64,000 nucleotides of DNA from Planctomycetota bacterium (GTDB taxonomy: Bacteria > Planctomycetota > Planctomycetia > Pirellulales > Thermoguttaceae). Each line of letters starts with the position of its first letter. Positions within the stretch are counted from its first letter, which is position 1. Positions 54,520 to 57,034 of this stretch are shown here, piece by piece. Location of the stretch: assembly GCA_029550925.1 (NCBI GenBank), contig JAKPGL010000064.1, forward strand, positions 1 to 64,000, given 5' to 3'. The translations under genes were made by a program, and so were the position numbers. Below the pieces are notes generated by a model. The model was not told the DNA's origin. It saw nothing but the letters and a program-made list of their open reading frames with translations, and did not search any database.

Positions 54520-55292
54520 TTACCGCGAGGTGCGCGGCGGGGTGCGGGCCAACACGGCGGCCCAGACGGCCGAGGCCCCGGCTTGTTTAAGCATCTTGGC
54601 GATCTCCCCGGCGGTAGCGCCGGTCGTAAGCACGTCGTCCACCAGAAGCACTCGGGCGCCCTGAAGCTGGGCGCTGGTGCGCACGCGGAACGCCCCCTGC
54701 ACATTGGTCTTTCGCGCCGTAGGCGACAGTTCCGTTTGAAGGCGGGTGCGGCGGTGCGTAATCACCAGCCGATCCTCCACCGAAACGCCTAGGCGTCGGC
54801 CTAACGCCCGGGCCAAAATTTCTGGACTGTTGACGCCCCGCACCCAGCGACGTCGCCAGTGCATCGGCGTTGGCACTAGCAGGCTGGGTTGCCAGGGAGC
54901 AACGATCGGCTGAATGTGCCGGGCAAACAGGTGAGCGATCGCTTGGCTTAACGGGGTGTGCCGTCGTTGTTTCATCCGGAGGATGACTTCCCGCAGGGGA
55001 CTTTCATACCAGCCTAGCGCCGTGACGCCGTCCAGACTGCGGGGTAGTCGCCGACAAAAGGGCAGCGAACCGCCGCCTCCCTGCCGCCTCGAACCGGCGC
55101 CGCACATCGAGGACACGCACGCCGATCGGCCGGAAAGAGTTCCCGCCGACATGGCGGGCAAATGCACACTCCATCCGCCGGTTCCGCCTCCGCACCGCAG
55201 ACCAAACACCTAGGGGGAAAAAGGAGGTCCAAGACGGCCCGGCCCGCCGCCAGGCCAATCCGCTTCCACCAGGGGAGCTGTTCTGAAGTCAT
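54520..55292 (-). CDS. comF: ComF-family amidophosphoribosyltransferase-like protein, split by a -1 frameshift
   Basis: The ComF architecture is complete but lies in two frames. The first frame (55292 to 55014; 92 residues) holds the N-terminal zinc finger: RCLVCGAEAE, VCICPPCRREL and RACPRCAAPV. The second frame (ending 54520) holds the rest: LPFCRRLPRSLDGVTALGWY, then SPLREVILRMKQRRH, VPTPMHWRRRWVRGVNSPEI and the phosphoribosyltransferase signature VLLVDDVLTTGATAGEIAKM. A -1 shift at CCCTTTT (55062 down to 55056) joins them as RCPFCRRLP, giving about 257 residues, a normal ComF length with the fourth Cys pair restored. ATG at 55292 has GGGAG 8 bases upstream. ComF acts in DNA uptake or fork maintenance. 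It is either a recoded gene or a frameshifted one; see the findings. Confidence 0.85.
55056..55082 (-). promoter_or_regulatory. Candidate programmed -1 frameshift site in comF
   Basis: On the minus strand the heptamer C CCT TTT (55062-55056) lies exactly in the X XXY YYZ register of the upstream comF frame. AGGGAGG (55082-55076), a Shine-Dalgarno-like stimulator, ends 13 bases before it. Downstream, CCCGCAG (55043-55037) can pair with CTGCGGG (54996-54990). This is the element set of bacterial -1 recoding sites such as dnaX. Confidence 0.5.
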
Positions 55293-55437: not shown

Positions 55438-56775
55438 TTATTCTATTTGATCGGCGGCCTCAGCCAGAAGTTCCTGGACGATTCCCAGGTCGGGCAGGAG
55501 CGGCAGAAGTCGCGGATGGCCGAACACCCGGACCCGCTTTACATAGTCGTCGAATTGTTCCGGGGCCAGGGCCTGAGCCACCGGCGAGATCGTGCTGAGC
55601 GGCTGATACTGCTGCTCTTTGCGGCGCCAAACATCAATCAGTAACGGGGTTTCTTTTTTCACGGGCGGGGCGTCCAGTAGGATTTCATGGGGTTGGACGA
55701 TGCGACGGAGGCGTTGGCTGAGCAGGTCGGCCAATTTTTCCGCACAAGCCACCTGCCAGGAGTACGGCCGATGGGCCAGTCGTTGGTACAACGGCCGAGC
55801 GTCTAAAAAGCTCACCTGAGCCAACCGCTTGTAAAGCCGACGCCTCGGCCCGAACAATCCCGCCAACAATTCGCCGGCCGGCCCGTCTCCCGCCGCCGCT
55901 TGCAACTGCTGGATCATTTCGGTCTCGGTCAGGCGAAACAGTCGATCCAAATCCAATTGGTGGTACAAGAGAAAAAAGGCCCGTTGCACCATGGCCGTCG
56001 CCGACCGGACCCCATGATGCCAATAGACCTCGCTGAACATGACATAGCGGGCAAAGACGAGCATTTCCGCGGCGGTTTTGCCCTTGTCGGTAATGGCCAG
56101 GCCGTCCCCGGCCGCATTCAGGCAGAGGCTGCCGATCAGACGTTGTTGATCGTAGTTTCGGCCGTAAGGCACGCCGGCATGGAGACTGTCGCGGAACAGA
56201 TAATCCATCTTGTCGATGTCGATCGGTCCGGAGAGGATGCTGGCCAAAAGGCGTCGGCCCGGTTCCACGGGACGCCCGCTCAAAAGAGCGACTATGTCCC
56301 GAGGATTCAGCCGCCACTCCTGCCGCAGCACATCGGCCAACTCGCTCTCCAGGAGGAAACTATTGGCAAACAGCTCGTGCCTCGGGGCGCCCGGCAGGCG
56401 CATTTCTTCGATCGGATGGCAGAAAGGCCAATGGCCGATGTCGTGCAATAGCGCCGCCGCAATGAGCAGTTCCGCGTCTTCAGCCGAAACCAATTGGGTG
56501 AATCGGCTGTGGTAGGCCAACTGTTTCAAAAGCAGCAGCGCCAGCCGATACACCCCCAACGAATGCTCAAACCGTGTGTGCAAGGCCGCCGGATAGACCA
56601 ACGAGACCAACCCCAATTGGCTGATACGGGCCAGCCGACGGAACTCGGCCGTGTCGATCACAGCCCGCACCCGGTCCGTCAGCGGTACATCCAGTTCCGG
56701 CGGGATCCGAACCAGGCCGCTTTTGGCGTCCAAACCGGCCACCTCGGGAATCGCTAAAATTTCATGGCCGGACAT
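55438..56775 (-). CDS. HD-domain phosphohydrolase (COG1078 / SAMHD1-like)
   Basis: A 445-residue metal-dependent phosphohydrolase of the HD superfamily. The metal site is seen as His in HTRFEHSLGVYRLA, the HD pair in AALLHDIGHWPFCHPIEE, and the late Asp in SGPIDIDKMDYLFRDSLHAG. The region VPLTDRVRAVIDTAEFRRLA with RISQLG is the standard start of the COG1078 group, which is related to dGTP triphosphohydrolases and SAMHD1. The substrate is therefore probably a deoxynucleoside triphosphate, but this is inference. ATG at 56775 with AGGAG 11 bases upstream; an in-frame start at 56811 is less likely. comF follows 146 bases downstream on the same strand. Confidence 0.88.
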   Translation of the reverse strand: MSGHEILAIPEVAGLDAKSGLVRIPPELDVPLTDRVRAVIDTAEFRRLARISQLGLVSLVYPAALHTRFEHSLGVYRLALLLLKQLAYHSRFTQLVSAEDAELLIAAALLHDIGHWPFCHPIEEMRLPGAPRHELFANSFLLESELADVLRQEWRLNPRDIVALLSGRPVEPGRRLLASILSGPIDIDKMDYLFRDSLHAGVPYGRNYDQQRLIGSLCLNAAGDGLAITDKGKTAAEMLVFARYVMFSEVYWHHGVRSATAMVQRAFFLLYHQLDLDRLFRLTETEMIQQLQAAAGDGPAGELLAGLFGPRRRLYKRLAQVSFLDARPLYQRLAHRPYSWQVACAEKLADLLSQRLRRIVQPHEILLDAPPVKKETPLLIDVWRRKEQQYQPLSTISPVAQALAPEQFDDYVKRVRVFGHPRLLPLLPDLGIVQELLAEAADQIE

Positions 56776-57034
56776 GCTTCGGCAATCTCCTATTGCTGTT
56801 TGAATGACCAATGAACCCCTTCCCGGCCCGGCAAATCCTGGTTTTTTCGGTTTTCTGCGGGAAACAGTTTCATCGGTTATTCAAAGCTCCGTAGAAACGC
56901 CCAGGCGACGGCTGGCCTGTTCCGCGGGGTTGGGCGAGTGAAGGTGCGGCGCCCTTTTCAGAGGCCCAAGCCCAGACCCTGAGAACGCCCCTGCCAGGAG
57001 TAGGGCGTCCCCTCTCCGGTGGGAATCCTGTTTT

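Follow-up and report, generated by a model that had tools for sequence, protein, structure and literature searches.

To our knowledge, well-supported −1 ribosomal frameshifting is rare in non-mobile bacterial chromosomal genes, the textbook case being E. coli dnaX, in which the motif A_AAA_AAG is combined with an SD-like sequence and a stem-loop. In prfB, the ribosome shifts by +1 at a stop codon; the SD spacing is 3 nt, and the shift is autoregulatory. Regarding −1 motifs, the class H_HH.U_UU.Y has been named among the most efficient, and C_CC.U_UU.U, which belongs to this class, shows >0.10 % frameshifting in E. coli when no stimulator is present; SD-like sequences located 6–17 nt upstream are given as experimentally stimulatory (PMC4066793).

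Here, we describe a split comF gene, i.e. a gene tied to DNA uptake or use, in a stretch of 64 000 nucleotides from a Planctomycetota bacterium (hereafter the window). Full-length ComF is probably made via programmed (or ‘corrective’) −1 ribosomal frameshifting, which would have become fixed before the species of the genus diverged and would be needed for the whole protein. No report on recoding in comF or the ComF family was found in the literature searched, and a search for CCCUUUU frameshifting yielded mainly eukaryotic and viral papers.

Layout of the split comF gene

In agreement with the sequence-only reading of this DNA, the zinc finger and the phosphoribosyltransferase (PRTase) part of comF were located in two frames of the minus strand (Table 1). 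Pfam profile searches matched the zero frame (ORF1) to PF18912 (DZR_2) with 45.7 bits (cut-off 27) and the −1 frame part to PF00156 with 34.2 bits. Among the NCBIfam models, the PRTase part alone scored 95.1 bits for TIGR00201 (comF) and 107.8 bits for NF008616 (GntX), both below the whole-protein cut-offs. Joining the frames raised the NF008616 score to 128.9 bits, covering model positions 6–226 of 227, and the TIGR00201 match then extended over positions 1–190 of 190, with the scores still under the curated cut-offs. The ComF/GntX architecture, i.e. an N-terminal zinc ribbon with CxxC pairs followed by a C-terminal PRTase, is found in the frame-joined product and in neither ORF alone.

The junction was also correctly read as falling on C_CCT_TTT in the proper X_XXY_YYZ register, with AGGGAGG 13 bases upstream. 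A −1 slip at this site would yield CPF/C (the slash marking the frame change), which is precisely the final CxxC pair of zinc ligands known from the family.

Table 1. Features of the comF locus (positions in the window)
Feature	Position	Strand	Details
comF zero frame, double zinc ribbon	55014..55292	−	ATG 55292, TAG stop ending 55014; 92 aa if unshifted
comF −1 frame, phosphoribosyltransferase part	54520..55056	−	First codon Cys TGT straight after the slip site; stop ending 54520
Slippery heptamer C_CCT_TTT	55056..55062	−	X_XXY_YYZ register; zero frame reads TGC CCT TTT
SD-like AGGGAGG	55076..55082	−	13 bases before the heptamer
Zero-frame tail beyond the slip site	55014..55055	−	13 aa in the window, 7 in G001, 10 in G002
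HD-domain (HD_assoc_2) gene	55438..56811	−	Upstream of comF

Conservation of the split and selection on both halves

The genus was represented by three genomes, i.e. the window genome, G001 and G002, which share 97.9–99.0 % 16S identity. The PRTase proteins of G001 and G002 are 69–71 % identical to that of the window, and dS between the comF sequences reaches 1.0–1.7, with silent sites near saturation; judged by sequence, the three genomes are separate species. In all of them, comF is split between the same frames, at the same heptamer and before the same next Cys codon, the junction residues being RCPF/CRRLPRSLDGV in the window, PCPF/CRRLPRSLDGV in G001 and SCPF/CQRMPRSLDGI in G002. The heptamer is identical in G001 (locus L009) and G002 (locus L008) and lies within an invariant run of 12 bases, TGCCCTTTTGTC. 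An HD-domain gene is located upstream of comF in each of the three genomes, for which reason we consider the three genes orthologues. The downstream neighbours vary: DUF502 and hemC follow in the window, and G001 and G002 have DUF1559 prepilin-like genes there. In the window, the PRTase frame is open for another 51 codons upstream of the junction (55056–55209, minus strand), resulting in a 229-aa ORF from GTG 55209. Since the same extension comprises just three codons in G002 and eight in G001, the upstream part of this ORF does not represent conserved coding sequence.

Outside the genus, comF was in one frame in all 38 genes inspected at the junction, and the last zinc-ribbon CxxC, which straddles the frame change in the genus, was read in a single frame in each of these intact genes. 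In a search of 60 relatives, the PRTase open frames measured just 187 and 182 aa in the two same-genus genomes and at least 250 aa in nearly all other genera. The same junction was not found elsewhere in a family-wide search (119 genomes), and, among the matches listed for an order-wide sample (396 genomes), none outside the genus had an open frame of the same junction length. Short comF frames in four further genomes (G116, G050, G094 and G277) were located at another position or close to contig ends. The comF matches of a contig scan were all distant (32–44 % identity) and included Planctomycetota/Pirellulales MAGs; together with the DUF1559 neighbours, these point to Planctomycetota, perhaps the order Pirellulales. 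In G116, which belongs to another genus (g34), the comF match was found in two pieces and two frames at a different place (contig C478, 346–829); this looks like a break or assembly error confined to one genome, because its two matched congeners have a long single frame.

The occurrence of such single-genome breaks within the compared set might suggest that the split itself is a sequencing or assembly error. However, the exact same break is present in three separate genomes whose PRTase proteins are about 70 % identical; these independent genomes refute the idea, to which we give practically no credence. With only three species carrying the split, its conservation probably reflects one common event followed by retention.

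Both halves of the gene were most variable at codon position 3 and contained no further stops or indels. With matched limits, dN/dS in the genus was 0.25–0.26 for the zinc ribbon and 0.13–0.16 for the PRTase, compared with 0.16–0.32 and 0.10–0.25, respectively, for pairs of intact comF genes taken from other genera; these pairs had dS values between about 0.3 and 2.2, those with a saturated or very small dS being excluded. The substitution pattern indicates purifying selection on both halves, similar to that on the intact controls, and because dN/dS is low and within the range of these controls, neither half has escaped selection. It should be considered that comF is dispensable in many bacteria, so that the three species might simply share an inactive gene by descent. 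Yet dN/dS is well under 1 in both halves at a dS above 1, with a constraint like that of intact comF, which refutes a pseudogene for most of the divergence and leaves very recent parallel decay as the residual case; we regard this explanation as highly improbable. The loss of one base, offered by the sequence-only reading as the simpler alternative to recoding, stands as the probable origin of the split, but neither as a recent mutation nor as an assembly error, given three diverged species and selected halves.

The zero-frame tail differs in both length and sequence between the three species, and the unshifted product is therefore unlikely to be the selected one. Off the junction, codons conserved at the amino acid level were rarely identical in all three species (3/17 two-fold and 13/40 four-fold codons of the same alignment). 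Compared with this, the invariance of the junction run in 3/3 species is suggestive; it does not constitute a formal test, as the Cys codons of both frames constrain part of the run.

Candidate recoding signals at the junction

GGAGG precedes the heptamer by 13 bases in the window and in G001 and by 7 bases in G002 (as GAGGAGG), i.e. the spacing is not constant, G002 being the exception, and lies within the 6–17 nt stimulator range in all three species. Based on the large open frames of the window, the chance of finding GGAGG 6–17 bases upstream of an in-phase position is 2.4 %. The 3′ end of the 16S rRNA is GGATCACCTCCTTTC in 3/3 genomes and contains the anti-SD CCTCC. The window genome carries tRNA-Pro(GGG), which reads CCU as well as CCC, and tRNA-Phe(GAA); according to base-pairing rules, the P- and A-site tRNAs would re-pair perfectly in the −1 frame. 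When 22 800 one-base deletions were simulated in the 38 intact comF genes, an in-phase slippery heptamer was within reach in 2.6 % of cases, and a heptamer plus GGAGG 6–17 bases upstream in 0.08 %; a site of this kind would seldom result from a one-base loss by chance. In-phase CCCTTTT did not occur in the 23 250 codons of the 58 window open frames of at least 250 aa, which is only suggestive of avoidance, a few occurrences being expected at most. Overall, the earlier suggestion of recoding, for which a comparison with close relatives had been proposed, is supported in that the split and the heptamer are kept across the genus, each time with GGAGG upstream.

The proposed downstream stem was not supported as a recoding signal. 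Segments of 51 and 65–66 nt folded no better than shuffled sequences in the window (z of −0.25 and +0.16) as well as in G001 and G002 (z from −0.97 to +0.08), and the predicted folds differed among the three species, none being conserved; the folding covered simple secondary structure.

Since the junction is a pyrimidine run, an in-frame message could also arise if RNA polymerase added a base at C3T4 in part of the mRNA. Realignment of this kind occurs in programmed form in dnaX and in IS elements, and the known sites usually consist of at least eight identical bases, according to a survey of frameshifted genes (PMC3711429). The longest homopolymer at the comF junction is four, and transcriptional slippage would give the SD-like sequence no role. 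Because the run is too short, we consider it very unlikely.

The strongest rival to frameshifting is separate initiation after gene fission, i.e. the second half would start alone at an NTG before the CCC, using GGAGG as its SD, and the two chains would act together or apart. An in-frame NTG is present as CTG in the window, GTG in G001 and TTG in G002, preceded by GGAGG at 10, 10 and 4 bases, respectively, so that the geometry would be usable for initiation in G001 and perhaps in G002. In the window, however, the start would be CTG, a very poor start codon, and the presence of NTG is uninformative about fission because the conserved Cys codon TGC in the other frame forces it. Furthermore, a zinc ribbon on a chain of its own would lack the eighth Cys, yet 3/3 species retain CP in the zero frame and C in the −1 frame, a ligand pair useful only to the joined protein. 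In H. pylori, ComFC activity depends on both domains, and mutation of two zinc-finger cysteines abolishes transformation (PMC9005727), which, by analogy, fits a need for the fused protein here. On balance, fission appears unlikely.

Proposed mechanism and comparison with known systems

A ribosome stepping back by one base is the most likely explanation, as the same slippery-site split is found in three species and both halves have been kept functional by selection. Most likely, the ancestor of the genus lost one base within a run of pyrimidines, and the loss itself created the slippery site; −1 frameshifting would then have kept ComF alive and the site would have been retained. The ribosome would translate the zinc ribbon up to Cys-CCU(Pro)-UUU(Phe), where the P-site tRNA-Pro(GGG) and the A-site tRNA-Phe(GAA) would slip one base back onto CCC-UUU, possibly assisted by a ribosomal pause at the GGAGG, before decoding resumes at UGU (Cys) and continues into the PRTase. 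The shifted product would comprise 257 aa in the window, with the complete ComF fold including all four of its CxxC pairs, whereas non-slipping ribosomes would release the 92-aa zinc-ribbon fragment with its unconserved end, which is probably discarded. From the sequence data, we infer that slippage takes place, how efficient it may be and what the SD-like sequence would contribute.

It is tempting to speculate that the frameshift is a regulated switch instead of a tolerated defect, with an efficiency responding to conditions such as the charging of proline or phenylalanine tRNAs or translation speed, thereby determining how much free zinc-ribbon fragment is made relative to full ComF and tuning DNA uptake or use throughout the genus; we hold this to be rather improbable.

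It appears that the whole genus relies on a slippery site for ComF, with the intact orthologues of related genera providing a ready control. The locus would clearly illustrate how a deleterious indel can reach fixation when it hits, and itself generates, a slippery site; annotation pipelines would call such a gene two genes or a pseudogene.

The comF junction resembles dnaX in possessing an in-register X_XXY_YYZ heptamer in a chromosomal, non-mobile gene, preceded at a distance of about 10 bases by an SD-like sequence. It differs in its motif, C_CCT_TTT, which stands without a supported stem-loop, and in that the shifted product would be the longer one, the full protein being obtained only through frameshifting. 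With prfB, comF shares the need for a frameshift beside an SD-like sequence to obtain the full-length product, but the prfB shift is +1 and not −1, takes place at a stop codon and has an SD spacing of 3 nt. The conserved frameshifted clusters of the GeneTack survey are alike in that the frame transition is conserved across species and coincides with a recoding motif; the main text of this survey names no comF, ComFC or phosphoribosyltransferase, and an earlier automatic listing in its supplements is possible (PMC3711429). Finally, as in corrective or compensatory frameshifting, translation would make up for an indel, and the product of unshifted reading probably has no use; most known cases of this kind are mitochondrial or from endosymbionts (PMC5009743), whereas the comF case would be one in free-living-type bacteria, fixed across a genus.
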